Below, piece by piece: positions 3,987-64,000 of a DNA stretch of 64,000 nucleotides. Under the pieces are notes generated by a model that worked only from the letters and a program-made list of their open reading frames with translations, was not told the DNA's origin and ran no database searches. The position numbers and the translations under genes were made by a program. The stretch's first letter is position 1. Each line of letters opens with the position of its first letter. Source of the DNA: Membranipora membranacea (Eukaryota > Bryozoa > Gymnolaemata > Cheilostomatida > Membraniporidae); contig OU612074.1 of the NCBI GenBank assembly GCA_914767715.1, positions 10,636,062-10,700,061 of the forward strand, written 5' to 3'.

Positions 3987-4254
3987 TTTATTTAAAAAAC
4001 ACATTTTTAGAAAATTATTAAATCAGTTTGCGTTGTTCATCACACTTTTCATTAATGGAGTTAGAATCATTATAGTGTCAAAAGTCATCAAATGGCTGTT
4101 TAAATTTAATATGTGTACACAAATCATGGAAGTTAATTAATAAACGAAAAGGCAACTTATAGTAATCATTGTCACATTTTAATCTGAGCACGATCTGTTG
4201 ACCTTCTGACTGGAACATGGAGTTTATACCACCTCCGTCTCAAGCATGGTTGTT

Positions 4255-6369
4255 TCAGGCTGCAGGCTGAAGGGAAAAAAATAAGTTCATATTATTGAAA
4301 CTATGTTTAAAAAGTGGTTCTATCACCATTACCAGTAATCAGTTTGCATATAGCAAATGCGTTGGCTATGATTGTCTGGTGGATGGGAGAGGACAAATTC
4401 AAGCTTAGATGGTATCTCCGTGAAATATAGAAGAAAACTAAGAAACAATTTAGTTTAATTTTCACTATATACCCACTATGCTCCTTGTGGGTTAATGTGG
4501 GTTAAAATCGCAAGTTTGTCTCTGTGCGAAGACTAAGAAATACAGGTGCCTTAAGAGTGCGCCCGCCATATTCAGCATTGACCTGCCATGGCTCTCTTTC
4601 CTAGCCGACAACCAGGTTTGTCAGAGCCATCTCATCGGTTAGTTTGCGTATTGCATTAAAAATCTTGAATCATTTATTTATATAAACAATATTATATTCA
4701 ACTATTAATCAAAAAATTTGTCCAATTTAAGATAGAATTTTACCTGGATGTCTGGATTAATGCCCTCCACTCTAGCCTGACGATATGGTCCTCCTCTACC
4801 ATGCATTGATCGACATCTGCAGCCCCCACGGCTTTGTCGAGATCCATTGGATTCACCATCTTCTCTAGGTCCAACACCTTCACCTCCTTGTGGCCCATCA
4901 GTTCTTGTACCATTGAATCTTTGCCAATCTCCCACTGGTCGGATACCTTCTCTGATTAGTTCAATTCCCTCGTCAAGCTGGACATTACCTTCACTTTCTC
5001 CTTTTGGTCTGTGGGATCTTGTACCATTCTCTCTTCGACCATGTCCCATAACTCTCATACACCTTCTTCTTAATGCCATGAATTCACCTTCCTGCATATC
5101 TCTCTCACCGCTTAGGTGGAAGGGTCTTGTTCCATTTCCTCTTGAGTGGAAGGGTCTTGTACCATTCCCTCTTGAGTGGAAGGGTCTTGTACCATTCCCT
5201 CTTGAATGGAATGGTTTTGTACCATTTCCTCTTGGTCCATGACCATTTGGTCGCATGCCCTCTCCTCTTGGCCCCATTCCTTCACCATTCAGCATGTATT
5301 CCTCCCTATTGTGGCTAGTGCTATTTCCTCTTGGTCCATGTCCCATACGATGCATGCCATCTCTTCTTGTTCCCATTCCTTCACCAGCTCTCATATTCTC
5401 TCCACCGTCTTTGCTTGGTCCATGGCTTCTGGTACCATTTTTCATATGGCCATGTCCCATGATACGCATACATCTTCTTCTTAGTCCAATCCATTCACCT
5501 TCTGTCATATCTCCATCTCCAAAGCGTCTTGTACCATTTCCTCTTGCCTCACGTCCCATCAACCTCTGTTCCCGTCTTGACTCCATATCTTCACTTCCTC
5601 TTTGCCCAAAAGGTCTTGTTCCATTTCCTTTTGCCTCATGTCCCATCAGTCTCTGCTCCCTTCTTGACTCAATATCTTCACTTCCTCTTTGACCAAAGGG
5701 TCTTCTGCCAGGTCCACACCTACAACGTCCTCCACGCTCTCCTTCACCTCTCACTCTATCAGGACTCTCCATTGTTTGCTCTCCATCAAGTTGTAGTGCA
5801 GCAGTATTGCTTCCTGTGGCATCATTCTGTGACTCTTGGGCAGTCACGGTCAGACCTGAAAACAAATATTATTTATATTTTCAACTGTTGTTAGCTTCCG
5901 AAATTTTATATGGTGGTTTAATAAAAGGATTTACATGGGGTACCTCGAAAGTGTAATACTTTTTGTTTCACAATAAAAAATAACCAAGATAAACAATCTT
6001 ATAGCTCAATGCCTTACACTACTGATCGAAGCAATTCATGTCGCTGCTGTATTGATCAACTGTCAATATAGATAATCTGATTCCAACTCTAGCCTGAATT
6101 GTTTCATTAAAGAGGATATTTCTACATCCTTAGCTAAGCATCGAGCAAAATTTCTTCCTGGGTTTTTGGATAATGTTAGAGGAGAGACTGAGCAGCTGTG
6201 CGCCTGTTTCGCTTTTTCAAAAGACAAAACACCCTAATTAGTCCGTCCCTGATAGATTCATCAAAGGTCATTTGAAAAGTCAAGTATTGGCTAATTCAAT
6301 TTGAAAAAAAGCAATTGCAAACTCACCGATGACGACCGCCAAGAACAGGAACGCTATCAACTTATTCAT
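4255..6369 (-). CDS. Family gene 1: secreted Gly/Arg-rich six-cysteine repeat glycoprotein
   Basis: Coding exons on minus: leader 6369-6327 (MNKLIAFLFLAVVI plus one base, donor GTGAGT), main 5855-4744 (acceptor TTTTCAG, donor CAG/GTAAAA). The probable mature start is Q21 after LTVTA. About residues 20-55 are acidic to neutral. Then come CRC (59, 61), two 29-residue repeats (RPFGQRGSED...GNGT), module a with LRRRCMRIMGHG, three copies of the 10-residue HSRGNGTRPF repeat, module b with LRRRCMRVMGHG, and C-terminal CRCRSMHGRGGPY. I count 11 N-X-S/T sequons, the most in the cluster. The usual 12-residue last exon is missing. The best substitute is a pyrimidine-rich acceptor with an exon at 4266-4255 that reads Pro-Ala-Ala-stop, for about 388 aa in all. 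A minus-strand AATAAA lies at 3992-3987. The leader and main exon are secure; the last exon is doubtful. Function is unknown; it is probably an extracellular glycoprotein. Confidence 0.82.
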
Positions 6370-12492: not shown

Positions 12493-14389
12493 TCAGTTAG
12501 CTAGCGCCTCTGATTCTTCTGTCTGTGGTGTCTGGAATTATAAATAATACAAACATTCATGATTTTGCACTACTCATCATACTGCAAGGTATATGGTGAT
12601 TGGTGTTGGGCTCATTCATAGAGGAAAAAGTGATGTTTATATAATTGCTACAGGATATTTACTGGCCACATCAAGCAATCCAAACAATAGAAGTTTAGCA
12701 TTGGATTATAAAGAATAAAATAAGGGTCTTGGTGAAGGTCATTCCTTAGAATGATTACAAAATAAATGATAGAACTTTACCTGCATATCTGGGTTACTGC
12801 CTTCCACTCTACCCTGATGATATGGTCCTCCTCTACCATGCATTGAACGACATCTGCAGCTACCCCTGCGTCCACCTTGAGGTCTGCCAGTATTCCCATC
12901 TTCTCTAGGTCTAGCTTCACCTCCGTTGGGCCCATGGGTTCTTGTAGTATTGAATCTTTGCCAATCTCCCACTGGTCGCATACCATCTCTGATTGGTTCA
13001 AGTCCCTCGCCGAGCTCTACATTGCCTTCTCTGTCTCCATTTGGTCTGTGGGATCTTGTACCATTCCCTCTTCGCCCATGTCCCATGACTCTCATGCATC
13101 TCCTTCTTAATGCCATGAGTTCACCTTCCTGCATATCACCCTCACCGTTTAGGCGCAAGGGTCTTGTTCCATTTCCTCTTGAGTGGAAGGGTCTTGTACC
13201 ATTTCCTCTCGAATGGAAGGGTTTTGTACCATTTCCCTTTGGTCCATGACTATTTGGTCGCATACCCTCTCCTCTTGGCCCCATTCCTTCACCGTTCAGC
13301 ATGTATTCCTCTCTATTGTGGCTTGTGCTATTTCCTCTCGGTCCATGTCCCATACGATGCATGCCATCTCTTCTTGTTCCCATTCCTTCACCAGCTTCAA
13401 TATTTTCTCCTCCATCTTTGCTTGGTCCATGGCTTCTGGTACCATTTTTCATGGGGCCATGTCCCATGATTCGCATACATCTTCTCCTTAGTCCCATCCA
13501 TTCACCTTCTGTCATATCTCCATCGCCAAAACTTTTTGTACCATTTCCTCTTGCCTCATGTCCCATCAGTCTCTGTTCCCTTCTTGATTCCATATCTTCA
13601 CTGCCTCTTCGCCCAAAAGGTCTTGTACCATTTCCTCTTGCCTCATGTCCCATCAGTCTCTGCTCCCTTCTAGACTCAATATCTTCACTTCCTCTTTGAC
13701 CAAAAGGCCTTCGGCCTGGCCCACACCTACAGCGTCCTTCAAGTTCTCCTTCACCTCTCACTCTCTCAGGACCCACCATTATTTGGTCTCCATCAAGTTG
13801 AACTGCAGCTTTTTCGCTTCCTGTATGGTCATCATGTGATTCCAGTTGAGCTACGGTCAGACCTAAAAAATAAATATTTCTCAGTTCAGTATTATAATAA
13901 AATGAGTTACCTATATGCACCTACCTAGTTAAATCCAGCAATGTTGAAAAATGTTGTTGAATGCCAGTAATTACAGATGTTACTGATTGATTCAAGTTTT
14001 AGGTATCATTCTAGAATTCTAATTCAGAAACTGCTATGTGGTTTATTAAAAGCAAGTTTCTATATACTATGATTAAAATAGCACATTCTTAGTACCTTCA
14101 CATCCGAACTTTGAGTGAGAATGAGTTGAAACTTGGCCATATGTTGTAAATGAACATTTTTAAATTAAACAGAGAATTGATACCAAAAACCTGATTCCTC
14201 CACAATCACTTTAGATGATAATTCGGGCAGAGTCATCAGTGATTACTGGCATTAAACAACTATGATTCCTTCACGATCATTTAAATATAAAGGTAGTTTA
14301 TACAAGCTAAGTTATGCTGTTTCTAATAAAACAATATCAAACTCACCACTGACGACAGCCAAGAACAGGAACACTATCAGCTTATTCAT
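12493..14389 (-). CDS. Family gene 2: secreted Gly/Arg-rich six-cysteine repeat glycoprotein
   Basis: Coding exons on minus: 14389-14347 (MNKLIVFLFLAVVS plus one base), 13862-12781, and 12531-12493 (TPQTEESEALAN, stop TGA), joined by consensus donors and acceptors for 387 aa. The mature chain likely starts near LTVAQLESHDD. Order: CRCGPGRR, two 29-residue GNGT repeats, module a (LRRRCMRIMGHG), two HSRGNGTRPF repeats, module b (LRRRCMRVMGHG), then CRCRSMHGRGGPY. I count 9 sequons, including NTT in RFNTTRTH. No internal stop or frameshift is visible. Minus-strand AATAAA is at 12369-12364. It best represents the long form of the family in a complete state. Secretion is well supported; molecular function is unknown. 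Confidence 0.9.
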
Positions 14390-19195: not shown

Positions 19196-20122
19196 TTAGT
19201 TGCCTATTGTCTCTGAGTCTTCTGTCTGTGATGTCTGAAATTACAAATAATACAAATGTTGATGTTTTTCTACTACTACTGTTTTAAAATACAATTTTAC
19301 CTGCAATATATCAGGATTACTGCCTTCCACTCTACCCTCACGATATGGTCCTCCTCGACCATGCATTGATCGACATCTGCAGCCCCCCCCCCATGGCCTC
19401 GTCGAGATCCATCAAATTCACCATCTTCTCTAGGTCCACCTTCACCTCCGTTTGGCCAATGGGTTCTTGTACCATTGAATCTTTGCAAATCTCCCACTGG
19501 TTGCCTACCATCTCTGATTGGGTCAAGTCCCTCGCCGAGCTCTACATTACCTTCACTTTCTCATTTTGGTCTGTGGGATCTTGTTCCATTCCCTCTTCGT
19601 CCATGTCCCATAGCTCCCATACACCTTCTTCTTAATGCCATGAATATATCTTCCTGCTTAGCTCCCTCACTGATTAGGTTGAAGGTTTTTGTTCCATTTC
19701 CTCTTGAGTGTAAGGGTTTTGTACCATTTCTCCTTGAATGGAAGGGTTTTGTACCATTTCCTCTTGGTCCTTGACTATTTGGTCGCATGCCCTCACGGCT
19801 TGTCACCACTCCTTCACATTCAGCATGTATTCCTCTCTATTGTGGCTTGTGCTGTTTCCTCTTCCTCTTTGTCCAAAGAGTCTTGTTCCATTTCCGCTTG
19901 CCTCATGTCCCATCAGTCTCTGTTCTCGTCTTGACTCAATATCTTCACTTCCTCTTTGACCAAAGGGTCTTCGACCTGGCCCGCACCTACAGCGTCCTCC
20001 ACGCTCTCCTTCACCTCTAATTCTCTCTGGACTATCTATTGTTTGCTCTCCATTATGTTGTGATGCAGCTGTATCACTTACTGTACCATCGTTCTGTGAT
20101 TCTAGTTGAGCTATGGTCTGAC
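19196..20122 (-). pseudogene. Family gene 3: pseudogene with several independent lesions
   Basis: Remains of the main exon (20122-19301) and a last exon (19234-19196; TSQTEDSETIGN then TAA). The defects are: the main-exon acceptor CAG/GTCTG has become CATGTCAG; the middle of the protein is deleted, joining the first GNGT repeat to RGNSTSHNREEY; one base is missing after EYMLN, shifting the frame; a nonsense codon replaces a Gly in the PKGES segment (TGA at 19560-19562); and a run of nine C at 19384-19392 shifts the CRCRS segment. No leader exon or promoter is present upstream: sequence just after the exon (GTACCTCACAAATGCAATG) jumps to flank that lies beyond the promoter in gene 4 (near 25336). 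The minus-strand AATAAA (19079-19074) survives. It cannot encode a family protein as it stands. Confidence 0.92.
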
Positions 20123-32979: not shown

Positions 32980-33059
32980 GAAGCTTGTTTTTATGGTCAG
33001 TATGAGTTTGCAGTTTTGCTATTAACCATGATATCCTGAGATGAGGTGGGTATGGACTA

Positions 33060-40881: not shown

Positions 40882-40954
40882 GGGTGACTTTGAGTGACTT
40901 TGAGTGACTTTGAGTGTTTTTGAGTGATTTTGGATGACATGAGTGACTTGGAGA
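40882..40954 (+). repeat. GTGACTTTGA minisatellite
   Basis: Degenerate tandem copies of a 10-base unit GTGACTTTGA. Length varies at the matching places in units 3 (about 51754-51810) and 4 (about 62630-62693). Confidence 0.75.
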
Positions 40955-43385: not shown

Positions 43386-43557
43386 TATCTGTAATGCAGA
43401 AAGGAGATACTTGTAAGCCTAAATATAAAATAATTAATATCATGAGTATTGTCCAATAATAATCGAATGCCATGAATAGAACTTTGATAAACAGCAGAAA
43501 AAGTCTGTTAAGGAAGAAATGACTGCCAACAAAGGAGTTAAAAAGTTTTTTATATGA

Positions 43558-43683
43558 ACTCACCTTTATTTCTTTTTAAGTATGAACAGATGTCAGTTCT
43601 CAAAACAAGTGTGATCATAACCTGGAATCTGGGTCATTTTATTGGAGCCAATTACCATGGCCACGTTAATCCCTGGTTACCAT
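43558..43683 (-). promoter_or_regulatory. Gene 7 promoter and noncoding exon 1
   Basis: On minus: GTTACCAT at 43676-43683 and CCATGGTAAT at 43651-43660 (one base off the motif), TATA-like CCAATAAAAT at 43636-43645, noncoding exon ending at 43564 with donor GTGAGT. Confidence 0.58.
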
Positions 43684-43739
43684 TAGAACCTTGTTAGGCT
43701 CAGTATGAGTTTGCAGTTTTGCTATTAACCATGATGTCT

Positions 43740-46700: not shown

Positions 46701-47860
46701 TTGGAGCGTCAGAGCAAAGCTGATAACCCCATTAATCTTTAATTATGTGGTCTATAATTATATTTAGTTGCTACTTTCCGTGATCTCAGATCTGGTCCAA
46801 CATGATTCAGCAATTCTGCAGCAGGAGGTTATTGATAATCTATGATGTAGATCCTTTTGATGTGGATGCATGGCCATTCTTCAACTCCATTGTTAAATGC
46901 TGGAAAGAAGCTCAACATTGCCCAGCTTCCCTAACATTCACCGCTTCAGATAGATCTTTGTAAAACATCAAGCAGAGAGTAAATCAAGTTAGAACTACAG
47001 CACTATTCCATTTGATGCTTTACTATATTAAGAGCGGGAAACTAGGCTTGACAATTTTATCCGTGTAATACAATAAATAATACAGTTTCTTCCCTGTAAA
47101 TGTCAAAATATTGACTCGGTTTTCCCAATGAGAAGTCAGCTCTGCCTGTGATTTCCATGGTTTCACTATACAAGGAGAATCATTCCTTACAAAAGAGTCT
47201 GTCTTGGTATTTGCACCAGGGTAACAGGATAAATCAAAGAGGTAATTTTTAAACTGAATTTGGAAATTTCAATATTGGAATAGTCATTTAAACCGTTACT
47301 GATACTGTTGCATGATGATATTATTTTTGCTGAGCCTTCTCTCACTGCACTCATCCATCACCCAACTCAAAACGTCCTTCTACAAAGCTTTGACAAATGC
47401 CTGACTTAACATTTAAACTCACAGACATACACTTCATGTTGCTTTAAGTAGATACAATTAAAGATCGTTCGCAGCTGGCTGCTATGCTGTGAGTAGATTG
47501 TTGAACCTTTTCATCAGCAGCATGAAAATGGAATAATATGTTAACTTGCAGGGCATACTATTTTGCAGTTTTCAATTGAATGTGATAAATGTATACTTAA
47601 TATATGCAATCTCAAATCGAGAAAAGTCACAGACGTTGCTCAATTGTGAGACTCCAAGCAACAACTATGAATTCTATAGTATATCTTTCGCATCAAATGG
47701 CGTACATTTGATTCTTTCAGCTTATACCATCATTCTATGTGAAACGCATATCTTAGCAAAAAATGCTGTGAGAAAAACACTATGTAATTGCAAAAATGGC
47801 AGCTGATAATCTGCTGACCATGTCAATTAATGTTGCTTGTGTTGCCAATGATAGCTCATA
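43740..47860. other. Region between divergent genes 7 and 8
   Basis: Copy of the 33060-37023 block, with the inverted segments and the old SINE-A copy (about 45820-46005). An extra stretch at about 46929-47060 is missing from unit 1 but present in unit 3. No coding region is supported. Confidence 0.55.
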
Positions 47861-47861
47861 C

Positions 47862-48056
47862 ACACGTCATCCAAAGATATCAATAGATTTCAAACTGCAG
47901 ACGAAAACTCATTATGAGCCTAACAACAGGCTCTCCATGGTAACCAGGAATTAACATGGCTATGGTAACTGGCTACAATAAAAGGGAGGAGGTCTCAGAA
48001 TACAAGCACACTTGTTTTGAGAACTGAGATCTTTTCCCACTTGCAAAGAAACAAAG
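47862..48056 (+). promoter_or_regulatory. Gene 8 promoter and noncoding exon 1
   Basis: Distal CACACGTCATCC (47862-47873), CCATGGTAAC at 47935-47944 and the one-base variant CTATGGTAAC at 47960-47969, 25 bp apart, ACAATAAAAGGG at 47975-47986, noncoding exon ending at 48056 with donor GTGAGT. Confidence 0.63.
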
Positions 48057-48252
48057 GTGAGTTAAATACTCTATTGGCAGTCGTTTATTTCTCAACAGAC
48101 TATTTCTTCAGTTTCATTCAATAATGATGGCTCATTTCTCTACTGAATGATAAAGTTATTTTTTATGTTATTATTATAGTTACTATATCATTTATAACTT
48201 TAAGTTAACAAGTATATTATTTCTGCATTACAGACAAGAGAAGATACAAATT

Positions 48253-49807
48253 ATGAATAAGCTGATAGCTTTAATGTTCTTGGCTGCCGTCAGCGGTAAG
48301 TTTGCCATTGTTTGATTCGAAACTGCGACATACAATGCATCAACTGTTAGTGTGAGGCATCAAGCTATGAGATCGTTTATGTTGGTCATTTCTTCTTTGT
48401 AAAAAAAGAAGAAGCTAAGTGAATCCTTTTTTATAAAAATACCCGTGTATGTTGTTGTATCTTGCTAAAAGCTGAAAAATGGGAATTATGAATATATTTG
48501 AATACAGGTCTGACCGTAGCTCAATTAGAGTCACAGAGTGATGCAACAGGAAGCGATATAGCTGCAGTTCAACTTGATGGAGAGCAAAGAATGGATAGTC
48601 CTGAGAGAATTAGAGGTGAAGGAGAGCATAGAGGGCGCTGTAGGTGCGGGCCTGGGCGAAGACCCTTTGGTCAAAGAGGAAGTGAAGATATGGAGTCAAG
48701 AAGGGAACAGAGACTAATGGGACATGAGGCAAGAGGAAACGGAACAAGACCCTTTGGGCCAAATGGAGATGGAGATATGACAGAAGTTGAATGGATTGGA
48801 CTGAGAAGAAGATGTATGCGAATCATGGGACATGGCCAAAGTAAAAATGGTACCAGAAGCCATGGACCAAGCAAAGACGGTGGAGAGAATATGGAAGCTG
48901 GTGAAGGAATGGGAACAAGAAGAGATGGCATGCATCGTATGGGACATGGACCAAGAGGAAATAGCACTAGCCACAATAGGGAGGAGTACATGCTGAATGG
49001 TGAAGAAATGGGGCCAAGAGGAGAGGGCATGCGACCAAATGGACATGGACCAAGGAGAAATGGTACAAATCCCTTCCATTCAAGAGGCAATGGTACAAAA
49101 CCATTCCATTCAAGAGGCAATGGAACAAAACCATTCCATTCAAGAGGCAATGGAACAAAACCATTCCGCCTAAGCGGAGAGGGAGATATGCAAGAAAGTG
49201 AATTCATGGCATTAAGAAGAAGATGTATGAAAGTTATGGGACATGGACGAAGAGAGAATGGTACAAGAATCCACGGACCAAAAGGGGAAAGTGAAGGTAA
49301 TGTGAAGCTTGGCGAGGGACTTGAATCAAGAGATGGTATGAGACCAGTGGGAGATTGGCAAAAAGGTGAAGGTAGACCTAGAGAAGATGGAGAAATTGGC
49401 AGACCTCAAGGTGGCTACAGGGGAGGCTGCAGATGTCGATCAATGCATGGTCGAGGAGGACCATATCGTCAGGGTAGAGTTGAAGGCAGTAATCCAGACA
49501 CGCAGGTAAATTTATATTTTAAATATATGAAATTGTTTATTATTATTGAATGAAGGACCTACATCAAGATGTATCATGTAATATACAAAACCAATAACAA
49601 ACTTTAAAAATTGAGACACCATTATGTAGGTGTTAGATTCCCAGTGTCGATTATGTTAACATCACATGTGCCTCTGCCTGAACAAATAGGCCTGTGACAA
49701 AGCAGCAATTGCCTTGCTGTGAGCAGACTAGAACATAATCATAACTGTGGTTTTATTTATACTCTCAGGCACCCCAAACAGAAGATTCAGAGACAACATC
49801 AAACTGA
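48253..49807 (+). CDS. Family gene 8: secreted six-cysteine repeat glycoprotein, plus-strand subtype
   Basis: Coding exons 48253-48295 (MNKLIALMFLAAVS plus one base), 48508-49505 and 49769-49807 (APQTEDSETTSN, TGA), 359 aa. It has three HSRGNGTKPF repeats where gene 6 has two. It carries SKDGGEN and the plus-subtype marks (RRNGTNPF, LESRDGM, no RFNGTR block). The donor after the main exon is GTAAAT, slightly weaker than the GTAAGT of genes 6 and 10. I count 8 sequons. AATAAA at 49944-49949. Near twin of gene 10; they differ by scattered substitutions such as GQSKNGT against GQMKNGT. Complete and apparently functional. Confidence 0.9.
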
Positions 49808-49949
49808 AGACCGCTCGACATTCAAAGAGTGTGACTGGCTATATTTAATGTTATAATTTCAATTGTTTATAGTATTTATATGATCTCTTTTCTAATGATT
49901 GTATTTTATTCAGCTTTCTTCTTATTATTTGCAACTGGCGATCAATAAA

Positions 49950-52363
49950 ATGGTATTTGAACTGGAGGTTGCAAGTTGATTGATTGAAATTCTACTTGGA
50001 AATTATGCATAGCCATGGTGATTCTGAAGACAAGAAATTAAATCAGCAGAATTTACCAGCATAAATCAATTCCATGAAAATCCGCCAACAAATTTTAAAT
50101 AAATCCAATCAAGATATTTGTTTCATTTCAATAAGTTACCTTATTAACCGTAATAGAAACCCTGAGATGATCAGCTAAATTTAAACACCAATAATGAATG
50201 TCTACAGTTATCGCTACAATGGTTCCTTCCTCCATTATCAACATACAGGGAAACCAGGAAAAGCCATATTAAAATTAAGATGTTCGATACTTTCAAAGAA
50301 TTCAGAATGAATCCAAGTATATTGACACAGTGTTTCAGGCCTTTGTTACTAGGTTGTTGTTGTCACAAAGTCACTCATGGAGTTTAACACTTTCTGTGAA
50401 TTGGAAACTAAATTGTAAATATGGATTGTCATAAATTGCTGAGCAATATTATCTAGCTTACTGATTATTCTAATAACAACAAATGATAATGATGAATGCA
50501 TCTCACTTGTTGAATGTGAAATTTTATGGAGGGAAATCATCATGATGTAGAGCTCCAGACCAATTTTATATTTACAATTAATTTATATATTGCACCGCAT
50601 TGTTTATAAATATTTTCACCATATGGCATCAAACTTTCTGATATATGGAGAAAAAAATAAAACCTATCCTATCCAATCTCATCTCAACTCATCCCGTCCC
50701 GCCCCATCCAATCCCGTTCATGCCTTCACCAGCTTGAGGTGACAAACATCTATTAGTTCATTAATGACAGCAAGTGCAGTATTATTGGATTGACACCTGA
50801 TCCTTGTTCAAATAGAGAATGGAATGCCTAAAATCCATGTAACTACCAAACTTCGTTGCACTTGCAGAATCAAAATTGACCCATCAAGGAGCTGTCTTTT
50901 TAATTCCAGGGGTAAATATCTGGTGCCCAGCGTACAATATTGAATTATTCAAGCTATTTATATTTACAGCTATTCTTTTATCTTTCTATATAGGAGTACA
51001 ACATAGCATCAGACTTTTCTGCAAACAAAACCTCGGTACATATTTGAGGATTTCTGAATACTCTATCGATTTCTTTGTAATCATGGAATCATGATACATA
51101 CACATGGTGTTGGGTGGATTTGATTTCCAGAAGAATTATCCACCAATATCACTAACAGTTTAGGCAAAATATGAGCTATAATGGTACAAATGGTAGATTG
51201 GATACAATCTAGCATAATACACCCAATCGGTTCAGTTTGAACATTGAACTTCTCTGAGAAGTACAGGGCCACATTGACCAAAAAAAAACAAGTAAATATA
51301 GCCAAGAAATGATTGAAAAGATCGAAATTGCCCTGTTGGTGTTGAGAAAACACTAGTCTGACAAGCCAATTTGCATCGTATATATTGACCTCCTTCAAAG
51401 CAGCTTCTGTTTTCCTTCTTATCAATAATTGTATTCAGCAGAAAAACTAGACAATTAAATCTTTTTTTCACTTCTTGGTACTGGAACTTGGTAATTGTTT
51501 ATTTTCATTTCTCTATCAAACCAAGGTTCGATAACATAGAAATTTTGTGCTCATTTTACTTAATATAAATGCTGCCGTTGTTAAAAATCTGAAAAAAAGT
51601 TTCTTTAGCGTTTCTGGGTCCGGAATATTTCTGATCAGTATTTGATTCATAAAATATTAGCACGGCAAGATCATCAAAACTAATGCGACTAAACAGTGGA
51701 TGAAGCTGGCTTCTAGAAATATATTCAGAATGTTTGGCACAGCTAGAAAAAATAACTTTGAGTGATTTTGAGTGTTTTTGAGTAATTTTGGATGACTTTG
51801 AGTGACTTGGAGACAAAAACATAAAGACACATAATCATATTTTTGGGTGTATTTTGAAATCCTTGGTTGTAATATATAGTTTTAATACCATTCATAATTC
51901 TATTACCATTCATTTTGTTATGTGTTTTTTGCCCTTTATTTCATTTTTGGGGATTATCAATACAGTGAAGCTCCTAATAACGCTGCTAGAAAAATTAATA
52001 CATTGGTGCTTTAACTTTACAACTTTATTGGTGTTTTATTATTGTAAAGGCTCTTTTCATTGGCCTTCCTTTAGTATTCATCTGCTTTCCTTTCCTTTCA
52101 TTTGTGTTTTGGATGTGAAACCAAGAAGTTTGCTAAGCCTCTATCTAGTAGAAGGTAACTGCATTCTTATAATGGATTATCAAATGCCTCGAGCGGATTA
52201 ATAAGAATTCTGATGAGTGTATTTTGTTGTGATAGTCAAATTGTGGCTTCCATTTCTTTTCTACATTACCACACAATCATATTGTATAACATATTCATCT
52301 CGATGATGATGTCTGACCTATATGGACTAAGTTTGAACACAAAACCTCCAGTTTCAAACCAAT
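49950..52363. other. Region between convergent genes 8 and 9
   Basis: Shared 3' flanks and unit boundary; nearly identical to 60872 onward in the next unit. No gene called. Confidence 0.5.
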
Positions 52364-52532
52364 TTTATAGATTCCCAGTTTCATGTAAAAATAATAGTCT
52401 AAGTCATAACAAATATTTCAACGTTTCATAATTTTATAATTTTTATATTTTAGTTATATAACAATCATTATAAACCAGTGAAAGTATAGTAATAAATATA
52501 ATCATTCTTAATCTTTGATTGCCAAGCAGTCA

Positions 52533-54275
52533 TCAGTTGGCTATGGTCTCTGAATCTTCTGTTTGGGGTGTCTAAAAGTAGAAATAATACCATCGATCAT
52601 GATTATATTGGTCTATCCAGTCAACTGGAGGGCGTTTGCTGATATTTAATAGGCTTGTCCTTTTAGGCAAAAGAAAAGTGATGGTTATATAATTGACACA
52701 GGCAACATGACAACCACATCAGACAATTAATCTCAATGTTTCAAATTTGGCATTGGTTTTGCAAATTGCATGGATTTTTTTCTAAATGCATAGTGTGGGT
52801 GATTCATTAAAATAAGATAAATTTATTGAAACATTTCATAATATAACTTTACCTGCATATCCGGTTTACTGCCTTCCACTCGTCCCTCACGATATGGTCC
52901 TCCTCTACCATGCATTGATCGACATCCGCAGCCCCCGTGGCCTTCTCGAGATCTACCAAATTCACCATCTTCTCTAGGTCCAACACCTTCACCTCCGTTT
53001 GGCCTATGGGATCTTGTACCGTTGAATCTTTGCCAATCTCCCATTGGTCGTATACCATCTCTGACTGGTTCAAGTCCCTCGCTCAGCTCGACATCACCAT
53101 CTCTTTCTCCTTTTGATCCATGGGATCTTGTACCATCCCCTCTTCGCCCATGTCCCATAACTCTCATACAACTCCTTCTTAATGCCATGAATTCACTTTC
53201 CTGCATATCTCCCTCACCGCTTAGGCGGAATGGTCTTGTTCCATTTCCTCTTGAGTGGAAGGGTCTTGTACCATTTCCTCTCGAATGGAACGGTTTTGTT
53301 CCATTTCCTCTTGGTCCATGTCCATTTGATCGCATGCCCTCTCCTCTTTGGCCTATTCCTTCCCCATTCAGTCTGTATTCCTCTCTATTTTGGCTTGTGC
53401 TATTTCCTCTTGGTCCATGTCCCATACGATGCATGCCATCTCTTCTTGTTCCCATTCCTTCACCAGCTTCCATATTTTCTACTCCATCTTTGCTTGGTCT
53501 ATGGCTTCTGGTACCATTTTTCATTTGCCCATGTCCCATGATACGCATACATCTTCTTCTTAGTCCCATCCATTCACCTTCTGTCATATCTCCATCCCCA
53601 TTTTGGCCAAATGGTCTTGTACCATTTCCTCTTGCTTCACGTCCCATCAGTCTCTGTTCCCTTCTCGACTCAGAATCTTCACTTCCTCTGCGTCCAAAGG
53701 GTCTTCGACCTGGTCCGCACCTACAGCGTCCTCCACGCTCTCCTTCACCTCTCACTCTCTCAGGACTATCCATTGTCTGCTCTCCATCAAGTAGAACTGC
53801 GTCCATATCACTTCCTGTTGCATCATTCTGTGATTCTTGAGCTGTTACGGTCAGACCTTAAAACAAATACCCCCGAAATTTCAAAGATTGTTAGCTACCT
53901 AAATTTAAGCTGATTGAGAGATGCATGACATTACCGCGCAAGTTGTAATTATTAGTCATCACAGTAGGCATCACATACAGTATTGATCAGGTGCCAATAC
54001 AGGTTATATATGATGTTCTTTACAACCTTAGATATTTGTAGAAGAAAAACTGAAAGCAGTTAGTCTTCATGAGTGCGCCTCCGGAAGGCTAAAAGGAATA
54101 TTTGCTGAGAGATTGTGCACCCGTTTTGCTTTTGCAAATGACAATACACTCTCATTGCATGGATTTATCAAATATTATTATTTTGATAGTAAAATAGCAA
54201 ATATTGAAGATTAATAGAAATAGCAAACTTACCGATAACAGATGCCAGAAACAGGAACGTGATCAACTTATTCAT
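52533..54275 (-). CDS. Family gene 9: secreted repeat glycoprotein, short form
   Basis: Coding exons on minus: 54275-54233 (MNKLITFLFLASVI plus one base), 53856-52853, 52571-52533 (TPQTEDSETIAN, TGA), 361 aa. Organisation as genes 5 and 7, with one 29-residue repeat and two HSRGNGTRPF repeats. Changes of note: the C-terminal CxC pair reads CGCRSMHG in place of CRCRSMHG, and module b reads LRRSCMRVMGHG. All six cysteines remain. I count 7 sequons, with the Asn of the RGNGTRSH sequon changed to Asp. TATAAA instead of AATAAA at 52369-52364. No frame lesion. Confidence 0.88.
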
Positions 54276-54447
54276 TATCTGTAATGCAGAAATGAGATAC
54301 TTGTTAGCCTGAATATAAAATAATTTATATCATGAGTATTGTGCAATAATAATCGAATGCCATGAGTAGAACTTTGATAAACAGAAGAAATAGTCTGTTA
54401 AGGACGAAATGACTGCCAATAAAGGAGTTAAAAAGTGTTTTATTTGA

Positions 54448-54573
54448 ACTCACCTTTATTTCTTTATCAGTATGAACAAATGTCAGTTCTCAAAACAAGT
54501 GTGATCATAACCTGAGATCTGGGCCTTTTTATTGGAGCCAGTTACCATGGCCACGTTAATCCCTGGTTCCCAT
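54448..54573 (-). promoter_or_regulatory. Gene 9 promoter and noncoding exon 1
   Basis: On minus: CCATGGTAAC at 54541-54550, a degraded partner (ATGGGAAC) near 54566-54573, TATA-like CCAATAAAAA at 54527-54536, noncoding exon ending at 54454 with donor GTGAGT. Confidence 0.58.
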
Positions 54574-54639
54574 CAGAAGCTTATTGTTAGGCTCAGTATG
54601 AGTTTGCAGTTTTGCTATTAACCATGATGCCCTGAGATG

Positions 54640-57600
54640 AGGTGGGTATGAACTATTTTCGGCAACACAGACAACAATAATATAATCAGCAATACTTCAG
54701 TTGCCGTTTTTGCAGTTAGACAGTGTTTTTCTCAATGTTTTTTTTGTGTGAGGATATGACTTTACCATAGAATGCTTGTGGGAGTCGCAAGGGTCAGTGT
54801 GCACTGTGTTATTTGAGGGCTAAAGTGTGTGTTAATTGATGCTAGATATATACCTCTGATTTCTTTGCTGCTTGGAGTTATACTAGCATGAAAATTTCAC
54901 AACATCTGTGGCTTGTCTCCATTTTACATCGCATATATAAAGTCTGCATATCACCTGCAATCAATAGTTACAAAATGGTATTCACTGCAAGTTGGCATCA
55001 TACTCAAAGAAAAATATAAAAGGTCAATAAATTGATTATTTTTCAAAAAGAATTCATTTAGGGTCTGATAGGTGGGAGCACCTTTAGCTCATTTGCTCAT
55101 CATCGTATTATGTGTACTTCATGTGAGAGATTGCGGTTAAGTAAGGTAAAGCTTTTGATCACAATTTTTCCTCTGCCCCTAGCAAGTTCAATGGAACAAG
55201 TAGCCAGCATGGTTCAATGCAACTACACCATGCCCGCTGATAACAAAATCTTCTCACATGGTAGTGGCCAGTAGCGAATGACCATCCAATGCATCTTCTT
55301 GTAACAACAGGGAGTATGAGACTGCTGTAAGTTTATAAATTTAGTCAGGTATCATTGTCCTCAATACATGGTTGAAGGAAAAGGAAAAGTTAAAGTTATA
55401 AAATGCAGGAGAAAATTAATGTCATTTTGCATCAGTATTAGTATTATTATAGGGCTTGCAATCACCAGTCCAATGTTGCAAATTTAGTTTGATGTTTACC
55501 TCATTCTTTCACTTTAGAATGAGGTTATCATTTAAAATCATGAAAATCACAGGTAGTACTGAGTTGTCTTTGGATAATCCGAATCAATACAATGGTATTT
55601 ACAGGAGAGAAACCAGATAAAATTGTCAAGCTAAGTTTCTTGTTCTTAATAATTATAGTAAAACAGCAAATGAGATCATGTTGTGGTGTTTAATTCACTG
55701 TCTAACACTAACACTCTCTAAGTTTTCACAAGGATCTATCTCAAACGGTAACAGAAGCTGAATAACTTTGAGCTTCTTTGGGAGAGATTGACCTGAAGTA
55801 TGGCAATGCATCTACATCAATGTGATCCATATCAATTATCAGATACCTGATTGTGCAAAAATGCTGAATCATGATGGACCAGAGCTGAGATATAAGAGAT
55901 GAGCGGCTGCAGATAATAATAGAACACATAAAAAACATACATCAGAATTAATGGGACTTACAGCTTTACTCTGACGCTCCAAGATGAATATTGACGTAAG
56001 GTTAAGGTGACCAGGAGACATTATTCTATTACTGGCTAGAAAAAGTACAGTGTCATGATTTAATCTTTAACTTGTTCAGACAGACAGTACGGATGAAGAA
56101 ATTAAAGTCCAGCTTAAAACGAGAGGTTACAAAACTAGGTGGAATGGGGTTTCATTGTCGCCTGTAACATTACAGAAAAAGTCCAGGTCTATATGGGCAG
56201 CAGCCAGTTTTATGAGAGCATCGTAGTAGAGGGTTTGTTAGGGCAGCCCATAATTTGTACAAAGGCATACTTTGGGTATTTAGTCCAATCCAAAACTTTG
56301 GTGAAGTGACATGTGTGGCATGTGCTTTATGGGACATGTCTCACAGCACTACAAGCAGCATCTATGGTTTTGAGTGCTTTGTGACATGTCCGATACAGCA
56401 CCTACCACAAACCTGTCAACAGCAACAGTTTTAAGTGCCATCCAAAACAGCATACAGTTTTGTAATGAGCAGTGAAATGACTGGCCGTAGGCTAAAGGTG
56501 AGGCTGCGAATGCCTGTCTCTGTTACAACTCACAAAATATAACAATTATCACAATATGCGGTTTTTGTATTGGCCACAGTCTCAAACCTCAATTTAGAGT
56601 CCAGTCAACATACTATGTGGGCAATGTATTTTTTTGATAATATCCTTGCGTGAGATAAGAAACATCAGGTTCTCAGTAGAACTTTTTCCGCTCAGTGCGC
56701 ATCCAAATACTGAATTATGTTTGAAAATGTGTGTAAAGAAGCCCCAGGAGTTGGCCCAAGTGGTTGTAGAGCCATAGCTTTGAGGGCAAGCGGTTTGATT
56801 TTCAAAATCCGCTGCACTTCATGCACTGATGGGTCGATTATGGTCCCTAAGGCTTGTCTAACCGGATTTAGAACAAAGAGTAATTTGGGTCAGTCATCGC
56901 AACCTTGCCCTGGAGGATACCTATATTTTGCTGCCAATGTGGACTGTTGTTAACTATCTGATATGCTACAAACGTTTACTCTGGTTGTTGATTTTCTAAC
57001 AAGAATATCGACCTATAAAAATATTGTTTCATTGATAAGAATAACGATATGATAGTTTGAATTCCCCTTATGCTTCTAACTTCTTTTACAAATATAATAC
57101 ATAGCTACACGATTTCATCGTGCTGCTTCCTTAACTGTTTCCCTGATATGAGATCAGCAACCGACAATTGCTTTGACCAGCTGAAAAAAAGTTTCTCATT
57201 CTCAAGTTATTTGCTGGCCCTATTGACTTGCTTGACCTCTTTGAGACAACATCACCCTATATTTAAAAGCTCCATCAGCTTCAGTCAAAAATTCAAAAAC
57301 TTTAACTCAATATTTCTATGTTATTCTTTTTAAGATAGTGCTTGGCGATAAATCAGACGTGGTGCATGAAACCCATGAATTTGGAAAGCACCATAGAAAA
57401 TCGTGTGCAGACTACCTCAGAGACTATCAATGCATATCGCGGTCAGAAGCAACAAAACTCCATGTCACCTAGTTTTGCTTTTGTCTTTCATAGCTGTTGG
57501 TATGTTCTTTATTTGAAAAAGAATAGGATACTAATACTGTACTTATCCCAGACAAGAATAGAATAATGTCCTTTTGTCACCTCAAATTTGCCTCGACAAT

Positions 57601-58757
57601 TATCTTTGAGCTTCAGAGCAAAGCTGTTTACCCCATTAATCTTTAATTATGTGTTCTATAATTATATTTAGTTGCTACTCTCCGTGATCTCAGATCTGGT
57701 CCAACATGATTCAGCATTTCTGCAGCAGGAGGTTATTGATAATCTATGATGTAGATCCTTTTGATGTGGATGCATGGCCATTCTTCAACTCCATTGTTTA
57801 ATGCTGGAAAGAAGCTCAACATTGCCCAGCTTCCCTTACATTCGCCGCTTCAGATAGATCTTTGTAAAACATCAAGCAGAGAGTAAATCAAGTTAGCACT
57901 ATAGCACTATTCCATTTGATGCTTTACTATATTAAGAGCAGGAAACTAGGCTTGACAATTTTATCCGTGTAATACAATATAATACAGTTACTCCCCTGTA
58001 AATATCAAAATATTGACTCGGTTTTCCCAATGAGAAGTCAGCCCTGCCTGTGATTTTCATGGTTTCACTATACAAGGAGAAACATTCCTTTACAAAAAAA
58101 TCTGTCTTGGTATTTGAACCAGGATAACATGATAAATCAAAGAGGTAAATTTTAAACTGGATTTGGAAATCTCAATATTGGAATAGTCATTTATACTGTC
58201 ACTGATACTGTTGCATGATGATATTTATTTTGCTGAGCCTTCTCCAACTGCACTCATTTATCACCCAACTCATAACGTCCTTCTGCAAAGCTTTGAAAAA
58301 TGCCTGACTTAACATTTAAACTCACAGACATACACTTCATGTTGCTTCAAGTAGGTACAATTAAAGATCGTTTGCAGCTGGCAACTATGCTGTGAGTAGA
58401 TTGTTGAACCTTTTCATCAGTAGCATGAAAATGGAATAATACGTTGACTTGCAGGGCATACTATTTTGCAGTTTTCAATATAATGTGATAAATTCATACT
58501 TGATATATGCAATCTCAAATCGAGAAAAGTCACAGACGTTGCTTAATTGTGAGACTCCAAGCAACAACTATGAAGTCTATAGTATATCTTTCGCATCAAA
58601 TGGTGTACATTTGATTCTTTCAGATTATACCATCATTCTATGTGAAACGCATATCCTAGCGAAAAATGCCGTGATAAAAACACTATGTAATTGCAAAAAT
58701 GGCAGCTGATAATCTGCTGATCATGTCAATGAATGTTATTTGTGTTGCCAATAATAG
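54640..58757. other. Region between divergent genes 9 and 10
   Basis: Third copy of the inter-pair block, with the inverted segments and old SINE-A (about 56740-56930). No coding region is supported. Confidence 0.55.
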
Positions 58758-58959
58758 CTCATACACACGCCATCCCAAGACATCAATAGAGTTCAAACTG
58801 CAGACGAAAACTCATTATGAGCCTAACAACAGGCTCTCCATGGTAACCAGTGATTAGTACGGCCATGGTAACTGGCTACAATAAAAGGGAGGAGGTCTCA
58901 GAATACAAGCACACTTGTTTTGAGAACTGAGATCTTTTCCCACTTGCAAAGAAACAAAG
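58758..58959 (+). promoter_or_regulatory. Gene 10 promoter and noncoding exon 1
   Basis: The distal block reads CACACGCCATCCCAAGACAT, with the CGTCA core changed to CGCCA. Paired CCATGGTAAC at 58838-58847 and 58863-58872 (25 bp), ACAATAAAAGGG at 58878-58889, noncoding exon ending at 58959 with donor GTGAGT. Confidence 0.63.
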
Positions 58960-59174
58960 GTGAGTTAAATACTCTATTGGCAGTCGTTTATTTCTCAACA
59001 GACTATTTCTTCAGTTTAGCAAAGTTTTGCTCAGTGCATTCAATAATGATGGCTCATTTCTCTACTGAATGATAAAGTTATTTTTTATGTTATTATTATA
59101 GTTACTATATCATTTATAACTTTAAGTTAACAAGTATATTATTTCTGCATTACAGATAAGAGAAGATACAAATT

Positions 59175-60729
59175 ATGATTAAGCTGATAGTGTTCCTGTT
59201 CTTGGCTGCCGTCAGCGGTAAGTTTGCCATCGTTTTATTTGAAACTGCGACATACATTTCATCAACTGTTAGTGTGAGGCATCAAGCTATGAGATCGTTT
59301 ATGTTGGTCATTTCTTCTTTGTAAAAAAAGAAGAAGCTTAGTGAATCCTTTTTTATAAAAATACTCATGTATGTTGTTGTATCTTGCTAAAAGCTGAAAA
59401 ATCGGAATTATGAATATATTTGATTACAGGTCTGACCGTAGCTCAATTAGAGTCACAGAGTGATGCAACAGGAAGCGATATAGCTGCAGTTCAACCTGAT
59501 GGAGAGCAAAGAATGGATAGTCCTGAGAGAATTAGAGGTGAAGGAGAGCATAGAGGGCGCTGTAGGTGCGGGCCTGGACGAAGACCCTTTGGTCAAAGAG
59601 GAAGTGAAGATATGGAGTCAAGAAGGGAACAGAGACTAATGGGACATGAGGCAAGAGGAAACGGAACAAGACCCTTTGGGCCAAATGGAGATGGAGATAT
59701 GACAGAAGTTGAATGGATTGGACTGAGAAGAAGATGTATGCGAATCATGGGACATGGCCAAATGAAAAATGGTACCAGAAGCCCTGGACCAAGCGAAGAC
59801 GGTGGAGAGAATATGGAAGCTGGTGAAGGAATGGGAACAAGAAGAGATGGCATGCATCGTATGGGACATGGACCAAGAGGAAATAGCACTAGCCACAATA
59901 GGGAGGAGTACATGCTGAATGGTGCAGGAATGGGGCCAAGAGGAGAGGGCATGCGACCAAATGGACATGGACCAAGAAGAAATGGTACAAATCCCTTCCA
60001 TTCAAGAGGCAATGGTACAAAACCATTCCATTCAAGAGGCAATGGAACAAAACCATTCTATTCAAGAGGCAATGGAACAAAACCATTCCGCCTAAGCGGA
60101 GAGGGAGATATGCCAGAAAGTGAATTCATGGCATTAAGAAGAAGATGTATGAAAGTTATGGGACATGGACGAAGAGAGAATGGTACAAGATTCCACGGAC
60201 CAAAAGGAGAAAGTGAAGGTAATGTGAAGCTTGGCGAGGGACTTGAATCAAGAGATGGTATGCGACCAGTGGGAGATTGGCAAAAAGGTGAAGGTAGACC
60301 TAGAGAAGATGGAGAAATTGGCAGACCTCAAGGTGGCCACAGGGGAGGCTGCAGATGTCGATCAATGCATGGTCGAGGAGGACCATATCGTGAGGGTAGA
60401 GTTGAAGGCAGTAATCCAGACACGCAGGTAAGTTTATATTTTAAATATATCAAATTGTTTATTATTATTAAATGAAGGACCTACATCAAGATTTATCATG
60501 TAATATACAAAACTAATAACAAACTTTAAAAGTTGAGATTCCATTATGTAGGTGTTAGATTCCCAGTGTCGATTATGTAAACATCACATGTGCCTCTGCC
60601 TGAACAAATAGGCCTGAGACAAAGCAGCAATTGCCTTGCTGTGAGCAGACTAGAACATAATCATAACTGTGGTTTTATTTATACTCTCAGGCACCCCAAA
60701 CAGAAGATTCAGAGACAACATCAAACTGA
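59175..60729 (+). CDS. Family gene 10: secreted six-cysteine repeat glycoprotein, plus-strand subtype
   Basis: Coding exons 59175-59217 (MIKLIVFLFLAAVS plus one base), 59430-60427 and 60691-60729 (APQTEDSETTSN, TGA), 359 aa. Three HSRGNGTKPF-type repeats, one with Tyr (PFYSRGNGT). Plus-subtype marks as in genes 6 and 8. Substitutions against gene 8 include Q-to-P in the acidic start (VQPDGEQ), SPGPSEDGG for SHGPSKDGG, LNGAGMG for LNGEEMG and MPESEF for MQESEF. I count 8 sequons. All splice sites are consensus. AATAAA at 60866-60871. Complete. Confidence 0.9.
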
Positions 60730-60871
60730 GGACCGCTGGACAATCAAAGAGTGTGAATGGCTATATTTAATGTTATAATTTCAATTGTTTATAGTATTTA
60801 TATGATCTCCTTTCTAATGATTGTGTTTTATTCAGCTTTCTTCTTTTTATTTGCAACTGGCGATCAATAAA

Positions 60872-63240
60872 ACGGTTTTGGCACTGGAGGTTGCAAGTTG
60901 ATTGATTGAAATTCTACTTGGAAAGTATGCATAGCCATGCTGATTCTGAAGACAAGAAATTAAATCAACAGAATATACCAGCATAAATCAATTCCATGAA
61001 AATCTGTCAACAAATTTCAAATAAATCCAATCAAGATATTTGTTTCATTTCAATTGGTTACCTTATTAAACCGTAATAGAAACCCTGAGATGATCAGCTA
61101 AATTTAAACACCAATAATGAATGTCTACAGTTATTGCTACAATGGTCCTTCCTCCATTATCAACATGCAGGGAAACCAGGAAAAGCCATAGTAAAATTAA
61201 TATGTTCGATACTTTCAAAGAATTCAGAATAAATCCAAGTATATTGACACAGTGTTTCAGGCCTTTGTTACTAGGTTGTTGGTGTCACAAAGTCACTCAT
61301 GGAGTTTAACACCTTCTGTGAATTGGAAACTAAATTGTAAATATTGATTGTCATAAATTGCTGAGCAATATTATCTAGCTTACTGATTATTCTAATAACA
61401 ACAAATGATAATGATGAATGCATCTCACTTGTTGAATGTGAAATTTTATGGAGGGAAATCATCATGATGTAGAGCTCCAGACCAATTTTATATTTACAAT
61501 TAATTTATATATTGCACCGCATTGTTTATAAATATTTTCACCATATGGCATCAAACTTTCTGATATATGGAGAAAAAAATAAAACCTATCCTATCCAATC
61601 TCATCTCATCCCGTCCCGCCCCATCCAATCCCATTCATGCCTTCACCAGCTTGAGGTGACAAACGTCTATTAGTTCATTAATGACAGCAGAGAATGGAAT
61701 GCCTAAAATCCATGTAACTACCAAACTTCGTTGCACTTGCAGAATCAAAATTGACCCATCAAGGAGCTGTCTTTTTAATTCCAGGGGTAAATATCTGGTG
61801 CCCAGCGTACAATATTGAATTATTCAAGCTATTTATATTTACAGCTATTCTTTTATCTTTCTATATAGGAGTACAACATAGCATCAGACTTTTCTGCAAA
61901 CAAAACCTCGGTACATATTTGAGGATTTCTGAATACTCTATCGATTTCTTTGTAATCATGGAATCATGATACATACACATGGTGTTGGGTGGATTTGATT
62001 TCCAGAAGAATTATCCACCAATATCACTAACAGTTTAGGCAAAATATGAGCTATAATGGTACAAATGGTAGATTGGATACAATCTAGCATAATACACCCA
62101 ATCGGTTCAGTTTGAACATTGAACTTCTCTGAGAAGTACAAGGCCACATTGACCAAAAAAAACAAGTAAATATAGCCAAGAAATGATTGAAAAGATCGAA
62201 ATTGCCCTGTTGATGTTGAGAAAACACTAGTCTGACAAGCCAATTTGCATTGTATATATTGACCTCCTTCAAAGCAGCTTCTGTTTTCCTTCTTATCAAT
62301 AATTGTATTCAGCAGAAAAACTAGACAATTAAATCGTTTTTTCACTTCTTGGTACTGGAACTTGGTATTTGTTTATTTTCATTTCTCTATCAAACCAAGG
62401 TTCGATAACATAGAAATTTTGTGCTCATTTTACTTAATATAAATGCTGCCGTTGTTAAAAATCTGAAAAAAAGTTTCCATAGCGTTTCTGGGTCCGGAAT
62501 ATTTCTGATCAGTATTTGATTCATAAAATATTAGCACGGCAAGATCATCAAAACTAATGCGACTAAACAGTGGATGAAGCTGGCTTCTAGAAATATATTC
62601 AGAATGTTTGGCACAGCTAGAAAAAATAACTTTGAGTGATTTTGAGTGTTTTTGAGTAATTTTGGATGACTTTGAGTGACTTTGAGTGACTTGGAGACAA
62701 AAACATAAAAACACATCATCATATTTTTGGGTGTATTTTGAAATCCTTGGTTGTAATATATAGTTTTAATACCATTCATAATTCTATTACCATTCATTTT
62801 GTTATGTGTTTTTTGCCCTTTATTTCATTTTTGGGGATTATCAATACAGTGAAGCTCCTAATAACGCTGCTAGAATAATTAATACATTGGTGCTTTAACT
62901 TTACAACATTATTGGTGTTTTATTATTGTAAAGGCTCTTTTCATTGGCCTTCCTTTAGTATTCATCTGCTTTCCTTTCCTTTCATTTGTGCTTTGGATGT
63001 GAAACCAATAAGTTTGCTAAGCCTCTATCTAGTAGAAGGTAACTGCATTCTTATAATGGATTATCAAATGTCTCGAGAGGATTAATAAGAATTCTGATAA
63101 GTGTATTTTATTGTGATAGTCAAATTGTGGCTTCCATTTCTTTTCTACATTACCACACAATCATATTGTATAACATATTTATCTCGATGATGATGTCTGA
63201 CCTATATGGACTAAGTTTGAACACAAAACCTCCAGTTTCA
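60872..63240. other. Region between convergent genes 10 and 11
   Basis: Near-exact copy of the stretch between genes 8 and 9, apart from a short loss around 61688 and microsatellite changes. Minus-strand frame at 62345-61956 (129 codons) noted under findings. Confidence 0.5.
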
Positions 63241-64000
63241 AACCAATTTTATAGATTCCCAGTTTCATGGAAAAATAATAGTCTAAATAATCACAAATAC
63301 TTCACAACATTTCATAATTTTATAATTTTAATATTTTAGTTATATTTTATTAATTATAAACCAATGAAAGTATAATAATAAATATAGTCATTCATAATCT
63401 TTGATTGTCAAGCAGTCATCAGTTGGCTATGGTCTCTGAATCTTCTGTTTGGGGTGTCTAAAAGTAGAAATAATACCATCGATCATGATTATATTATTCT
63501 ATCCAGTCAACTGGAGGGCGTTTGCTGATTTTTAATAGGCTTATCCTATTAGGCAGAAGAGAAAGTGATGGTTATAAAATTGACACAGGCAACCTGACAA
63601 CTCCATCAGACAATTAATCTCAATGTTGCAAATTTGGCATTGGTTTTGCAAATTGCATGAATTGGTGTGGGTGATTCATTAAAAGAATGATAAATTCATT
63701 GATACATTTTATGATATAACTTTACCTGCATATCCGGTTTACTGCCTTCCACTCGTCCCTCACGATATGGTCCTCCTCTACCATGCATTGATCGACATCT
63801 GCAGCCCCCGTGGCCTTCTCGAGATCTACCAAATTCACCATCTTCTCTAGGTCCAACACTTTCACCTCCAATTGGCCTATGTGATCTTGTACCATTGAAT
63901 CTTTGCCAATCTCCCACTGGTCGCATACCATCTCTGAATGGTTCAAGTCCCTCGCTAAGCTCGACATTACCATCTCTTTCTCCTTTTGGTCCTTGGGATC
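61647..64000. repeat. Segmental duplication unit 4 (partial)
   Basis: The left 2.35 kb of a fourth unit, cut by the window edge. It is most like unit 3. Confidence 0.85.
63419..64000 (-). CDS. Family gene 11, 3' part only (cut by window edge)
   Basis: Last exon 63457-63419 (TPQTEDSETIAN, TGA) and the 3' end of the main exon from 63726 to the window edge, with donor CAG/GTAAAG. The visible frame covers the end of module b (RDGMRPVGDWQRFNGTR), then GREDG-type linker and CRCRSMHGRGGPYREGRVEG. It follows the short minus-strand form of genes 5, 7 and 9, with small differences (RPIGGESVG). Open throughout what can be seen. The 5' exons and promoter lie outside. Confidence 0.85.

Follow-up and report, generated by a model that had tools for sequence, protein, structure and literature searches.

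Gene array and gene structure

The 64,000-nt stretch of the Membranipora membranacea genome analysed here (the window, C10:10636062-10700061, where C10 is contig OU612074.1; positions without this prefix are those of the window) carries a clustered gene family whose members, as read from their sequences, encode secreted, basic, predicted N-glycosylated repeat glycoproteins. A search of the host's own genome (339.3 Mb, 18 contigs) gave 19 exon-level matches, which resolve into 12 genes, all of them at C10:10640772-10706539. Eleven copies are found in the window, the number given in a preliminary description of this DNA: nine are intact (g1, g2, g5-g10 and g11), g4 is truncated and g3 is a pseudogene. 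The twelfth gene, g12, lies 5 kb beyond the window end.

The genes follow one pattern: a non-coding first exon, a leader exon with 43 coding nt, a main exon of 965-1112 nt and a last exon, which in most genes contributes 39 coding nt including the stop codon. A leader exon is present in 11 of the 12 genes, and these display a GT donor, an AG acceptor, phase 1 between leader and main exon and phase 0 between main and last exon. Thus the exon structure and splice phases previously described as common to all members hold for these 11 genes, g12 included, but not for pseudogene g3, in which no leader was detected. The claim of shared last exons also needs a restriction. The C-terminal end is (A/T)PQTEDSE-like, with small changes, in nine of the 10 leader-bearing genes other than g1, and g12 has a close variant; its last junction, read by eye as TTTCAG|AAATCACAG, is consistent with the other genes. 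The predicted last exon of g1, however, is unrelated to those of the other members.

Seven of the window copies are on the minus strand in addition to g3. Gene g1 (4224..6369, 396 aa) has its leader at 6327-6369, reading MNKLIAFLFLAVVI|G, its main exon at 4744-5855 and the predicted aberrant last exon with coding part 4224-4259. Gene g2 (12493..14389, 387 aa) has the leader at 14347-14389, main exon at 12781-13862 and last coding part at 12493-12531. The pseudogene g3 (19199..20117, minus strand) consists of main exon remnants with frame breaks at 19283-20117 and a last-exon remnant at 19199-19228. In g4 (23140..24939; leader 24897-24939, main exon 23442-24481, last exon starting at 23178 and reaching to about 23140), the main exon contains a TGA in frame at 23493-23495, which cuts the product just past the last CxC. 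Genes g5 (30938..32679; leader 32637-32679, main exon 31256-32259, last coding part 30938-30976; 7 Cys), g7 (41660..43385; leader 43343-43385, main exon 41979-42982, last coding part 41660-41698) and g9 (52533..54275; leader 54233-54275, main exon 52853-53856, last coding part 52533-52571) each encode 361 aa. Gene g11 (63419..64000 in the window, 385 aa) has its last coding part at 63419-63457 and its main exon at 63726-64801, and its leader, at 65333-65375, is beyond the window end.

The remaining three are on the plus strand: g6 (37440..38961, 348 aa), with leader 37440-37482, main exon 37695-38659 and last coding part 38923-38961; g8 (48253..49807, 359 aa), with leader 48253-48295, main exon 48508-49505 and last coding part 49769-49807; and g10 (59175..60729, 359 aa), with leader 59175-59217, main exon 59430-60427 and last coding part 60691-60729.

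A spliced product in the protein database

The protein database yielded one match only among 1078 candidates. This protein, P0001, has 359 aa and is encoded on a 1227-base contig of Joint Genome Institute origin. It is nearest to spliced g8, with 346 of 359 residues identical, and is an exact match to no gene of this genome. P0001 spans both predicted junctions, AAVSG|LTV and DTQ|APQTEDSETTSN. Given g8 introns of 212 and 263 nt, the contig is most simply read as a transcript, with a processed copy as the alternative. Thus at least one family member is probably transcribed, and the lack of spliced transcripts, named beforehand as an outcome that would speak against the family, is not what was found.

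No match to a named family was obtained, in agreement with the preliminary description. A Pfam search gave nothing significant, first with two proteins and then with ten members (the best hit was DUF826 in one of the ten, E-value 0.3), and NCBIfam, which covers bacterial and archaeal families, gave nothing significant for the two proteins searched. One PDB search was empty and another returned three TRIM2 chains at E-values of 1.2-1.3, which is chance level. No significant homologue was detected in plasmid DNA, in phages (searched by protein), in viral contigs or in bacterial and archaeal genomes.

Protein features and repeat unit

The hydrophobic leader was cut by eye after about 20 residues, at TVTA or LTVA before Q, and figures for mature proteins depend on this cut. 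The mature proteins have 323-376 aa, the shortest being that of truncated g4, and a calculated pI of 9.1-10.5. Composition over the family is Gly 20.1%, Arg 15.4%, Met 5.9%, His 4.2% and Tyr 0.6%. Six cysteines in the order CxC, RRRC, RRRC, CxC, with small changes nearby, are found in all 11 leader-bearing genes, and each mature protein has 7-11 sequons; the earlier characterization of a six-cysteine, sequon-rich family with a hydrophobic leader is thereby confirmed. The g8 protein has eight sequons, whereas 5000 shuffles had 1.7 on average and never more than 7.

Most sequons are housed in a repeat unit, RR..(M/R)R.MGH....NGTR or, in fuller form, RR..MR.MGHG....NGTR, whose diverged copies lie between the two CxC termini. 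A protein has 3-6 copies by the strict pattern and 5-6 by a loose one. Each of the two RRRC modules is a form of the same unit that carries a single Cys. For g1 the unit gives 6 matches, compared with 0.016 on average and at most 2 in 5000 shuffles, with a pattern that was picked post hoc. Among members a 26-aa indel varies, as do the count of 10-aa GNGT(R/K)PFHSR repeats and some small indels; g6, g8 and g10 also lack a stretch of 11 aa. The order of the parts is fixed. The mosaic of the preliminary description comes down to these differences.

AlphaFold2 modeling, with a shallow alignment of 10 rows (eight window genes, g12 and P0001; g3, g4 and g11 left out), gave a mean predicted local distance difference test (pLDDT) score of 39.5, with no residue at 70 or above. 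A folded domain was rejected on these values, and the model suggests that the proteins are probably disordered. The hydrophobic leader, the sequons and the likely disorder would also suit a mucus or gland secretion that has no structural task, for example of the feeding tentacles or the larva. Nothing specific speaks in favour of such a secretion, and we regard it as quite unlikely.

Several features are those expected of secreted immune effectors, the main rival to the structural role proposed below. Such effectors would be cationic, glycosylated and Cys-linked proteins that attach to microbes at the surface of the colony, similar in action to the sea-urchin Transformer (185/333) proteins but unrelated to them. 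The basic pI, the tandem array, the shared leader and the variable repeat number accord with this, as does an RGD motif at residue 253 of g7 and g9. However, the RGD occupies a position where the siblings have a sequon. The best helical moment of g8 was reached by 269 of 300 shuffles, and that of nbE, a neighbouring gene described below, by 249 of 300. A cationic amphipathic antimicrobial helix was discarded as a candidate, as neither value exceeds the shuffles.

Promoter and non-coding first exon

An ATAAAA-type box lies ahead of the non-coding first exon in 10 of 11 genes in the promoter alignment; that of g1 was found separately, about 450 nt upstream of the ATG. The donor of the non-coding exon matches a pattern in 9 of 11 genes. 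A shared promoter block is exemplified by g6 (37074..37151, plus strand), in which AACTCAT..TGAGCCTAACAACAGGCT and two ATGGTAAC sites 25 bp apart accompany the ATAAAA. The ATGGTAAC site resembles what we take to be half of an RFX X-box. The same gene displays ATAAAAGGG at 37146, the end of the non-coding exon at about 37224 and AATAAA at 39098, all on the plus strand. A 47-base promoter pattern is found upstream of g2, g5, g7, g8, g9 and g10 as well as g6, and copies of the block are at 14666-14743, 32931-32977, 37074-37151, 43637-43683, 47906-47983, 54527-54604 and 58809-58886.

The sequence CCATGGTAAC occurs 10 times in the window, each time upstream of a family leader, against 0.10 expected. 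Across 234 kb there are only two further matches, upstream of g11 and g12, and no exact match upstream of the neighbour genes. CCATGGAACA and CCATGGTACA are found shortly ahead of the TATA box of neighbours nbD and nbE. The conservation of the promoters partly reflects descent of the copies; the promoter alignment, like the trees and a repeat search over 34 kb, is descriptive only.

Duplication and selection

Three tandem unit copies of 10.7-10.9 kb, each with a divergent gene pair (g5/g6, g7/g8 and g9/g10), make up 30719..63161. In 300-nt blocks the copies are 67-100% alike to their reference, mostly at least 93%, among the 20 of 25 repeat families listed. Genes g11 and g12 have the same divergent arrangement farther right. 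The copies thus appear to have arisen by tandem duplication, partly of divergent pairs. The duplicated units also contain two related minus-strand open reading frames, at 40225-40611 and 61956-62372; Pfam gave only sub-threshold matches to the first, and the second had no Pfam match.

The ratio of nonsynonymous to synonymous substitution rates (dN/dS), calculated by the Nei-Gojobori method for the 55 pairs from the 11 leader-bearing genes, is below 1 in all 55, with a mean of 0.32 and a median of 0.30. The highest value, 0.89 for g8/g10, is based on 16 and 5 changes only. Among six pairs of recent copies, divergence is 1.6-5.0% in the main exon, 1.9-9.0% in the introns and 4.6-5.5% in the spacer between the genes of a divergent pair. 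Main exon divergence is slightly above that of an intron in two of 12 comparisons (g5/g9 intron 1 and g6/g10 intron 2), and for g5/g7 the main exon, at 5.0%, slightly exceeds the intergenic DNA of the two units concerned, at 4.6%. The coding part, which diverges about as much as introns or less, shows no clear acceleration, and a few positively selected sites may remain. Diversifying selection across the family was rejected on the dN/dS values together with the intron and intergenic comparison, and the term "diversifying" applied in the preliminary description is not supported. Purifying selection suggests instead that the copies serve dose and a conserved product, not variety.

These values bear on two of the alternatives. 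For immune effectors, neither a dN/dS below 1 in every pair nor a coding divergence without clear excess is as expected, and although this remains the foremost competitor we consider it unlikely. Should it be correct, the locus would be an example, outside sea urchins, of a clustered family of repeat effectors. The many sequons, the repeats and the tandem copies would also suit glycoproteins of the egg coat or of another reproductive role. Fast coding change is common in egg-coat proteins, however, and there is no sign of it here, nor did Pfam find a significant domain; a reproductive role is therefore judged quite unlikely.

Comparison with Transformer genes

The family had been compared with the sea-urchin Transformer genes, whose proteins, according to the preliminary description, lack cysteines. 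Resemblances consist of the tight cluster, a leader exon with one large repeat exon (here rich in Gly and Arg), a Gly-rich secreted product and possible glycosylation sites, as these are outlined for Transformer in PMC8634487, PMC5491942 and PMC8268236. However, Transformer genes are described as having two exons, one for the leader and one for the mature protein (PMC5491942, PMC8268236), against three coding exons and one non-coding exon here, and their occurrence is given as confined to echinoids (PMC8268236), whereas the present host is a bryozoan. Kinship is rejected because host lineage and exon number differ, a separation drawn from the published descriptions, and we hold a relationship to be scarcely conceivable.

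The fixed order of parts, the conserved Cys and the dN/dS below 1 also set the bryozoan family apart. The Transformer trait of presence or absence of mosaic elements, with strong diversity, is not seen in proteins of fixed order with a mean dN/dS of 0.32. As to a Gly-rich region followed by a His-rich one, Gly and His amount to 20.1% and 4.2% overall, and no separate His-rich region is apparent by eye.

The wider chromosome 10 cluster

The array in the window belongs, as one of its branches, to a larger cluster that spans some 285 kb and has about 24 genes, pseudogenes included, as counted up to C10:10840061 apart from C10:10551062-10566061. Neither this cluster nor the non-coding first exon nor the duplicated divergent pair figures in the preliminary description. 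A generic leader pattern (ATG, 13 further codons, G|GTRAG and a hydrophobic core) was used to scan C10:10566062-10840061 (274 kb). It gave 20 matches, which are the 11 family leaders and nine to the right that were assigned to neighbour genes. Searched against the whole genome, two strict leader patterns matched 10 and 8 times, always within C10:10547639-10830934, and never in the reversed control. The first of these detects 4 of the 11 family leaders, and diverged members may therefore exist elsewhere in the genome. For the match at C10:10547671 there is, to the left, a related main exon that is split in two.

In six of the eight neighbours tried (nbB, nbD, nbE, nbF, nbH and nbI) the main exon follows the leader in the same phase 1, as in the junction MQRLIISLLFTTVI|GLCLAHG. 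For nbA and nbG an early acceptor was chosen by the script, and nbX is outside the eight. In nbC a repeat main exon is present, and a leader was looked for there and not found; the leader at C10:10826056 has a broken frame downstream. The neighbour main exons are rich in Arg, Gly, Met and Tyr, with repeats such as RGMRQMEHGPTYRMHPRE, RQWGYGQRED and RGMRSYGYGPSRGMGQ. At C10:10780535-10831934 a basic segment, KLKSRVDVILRSLKF, recurs within the Arg/Gly/Met/Tyr repeats of neighbour genes; in nbE, the gene examined for this, the helical moment of the segment does not exceed that of shuffles.

Neighbour nbA (C10:10747307-10749146) has four repeats of a six-cysteine module, GECICT...CG..CCxC. It shows a likeness to the Noelin N-terminal domain (PF12308) of 29.4 bits over the whole protein (cut-off 25, E-value 9e-07), to which no single stretch contributes enough to pass, and it has a CxC-type motif, GECICTVAKPI. 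PF12308 was not found in the window family by the Pfam search.

A possible structural matrix

A role as secreted structural matrix is the reading we favour, at a probability of about one half. The proteins would be released in large amounts into an extracellular layer of the zooid, which may be the cuticle, the organic matrix of the calcified walls together with the flexible hinges, or the layer of attachment to kelp. Their cationic glycosylated chains would be linked through the terminal CxC and the central Cys residues. Purifying selection, the repeats, sequons and terminal cysteines, and the many similar copies fit a protein mass-produced for such a layer. A matrix role had been mentioned earlier as an alternative, and it seems to fit the wider cluster better.

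The shell framework families of molluscs have a signal peptide, low-complexity Gly-rich basic repeats and tandem clusters. In these three respects, and as judged from such general descriptions, the window family is like the lineage-restricted repeat matrix proteins of lophotrochozoans; it differs from the mollusc families in the sequon-bearing MGHG units and the CxC termini of the window branch. The link to walls and hinges is drawn from the biology of the host: M. membranacea is described as a kelp specialist with calcified walls and flexible hinges (PMC10290214), and a secondary origin has been argued for bryozoan skeletons, following the loss of several biomineralisation genes that brachiopods and molluscs have in common (PMC9484238). 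Secreted repeat proteins that are encoded together at one locus, in a bryozoan that calcifies and has flexible hinges, would offer a concrete set of candidate genes for the skeletal matrix.

Several points weigh against a structural matrix. Many mineral-binding proteins are acidic, and this family is basic. With Tyr at only 0.6% in the window branch, the proteins also have little of a usual cross-linking residue. Furthermore, the similarity of the main exons to those of the neighbours is modest. In 18 Smith-Waterman comparisons of mature parts between the family and nine neighbours (without nbX), z ranged from -0.5 to 6.9, residue shuffles being known to overstate z for repeats. The real score topped all 200 residue shuffles in 9 of the 18 comparisons, none of them with nbG, nbH or nbI; two unrelated left-flank open reading frames, used as control, gave z of -0.6 to 0.1. 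Unrelated repeats could have acquired the same leader.

A broader form of the matrix role may be considered, although it is speculative and we think it improbable. The cluster of about 285 kb would be a bryozoan-specific secretory complex, in which one leader exon and its frame were repeatedly coupled to new repeat exons. The products would form the matrix of an independently evolved skeleton with flexible hinges, with the window family as the Cys and glycan cross-linking part.

Other observations on the host genome

The published genome of M. membranacea is reported at 339.4 Mb, with 11 chromosomes, 21 scaffolds and a 14.7-kb mitochondrial genome of 34% GC (PMC10290214). The mitochondrial contig, C18, has 14,741 bp and a GC content of 34.0%. 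Its gene order is rearranged over both strands, with CYTB, COX2, ND3, ND5, COX1, ND2, ND4L and ND4 on minus and ND1 and ATP6 on plus (genes named by eye). COX1 has AAA for the invariant Lys in STNHKDIG, while AGR codons occur in motifs such as KIFSWL. AGR sites of the KIFSWL type are Ser in other animals, and the echinoderm code reads AAA differently. Thus the usage indicates the invertebrate code, and neither the echinoderm nor the ascidian one.

The expected telomere repeat of animals is TTAGGG. Long CCCCAAA arrays, i.e., (TTTGGGG)n, are found at the starts of C1, C3, C4 and C5 (four of the seven contigs C1-C7). The start of C2 reads N, those of C6, C7 and C10 are without a CCCCAAA array, and no more than 3 copies stand at the end of C1. 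Finally, C17, a 10.3-kb unplaced contig, consists of tandem copies of a Ty1/copia-like retroelement with long open frames, as read by eye.

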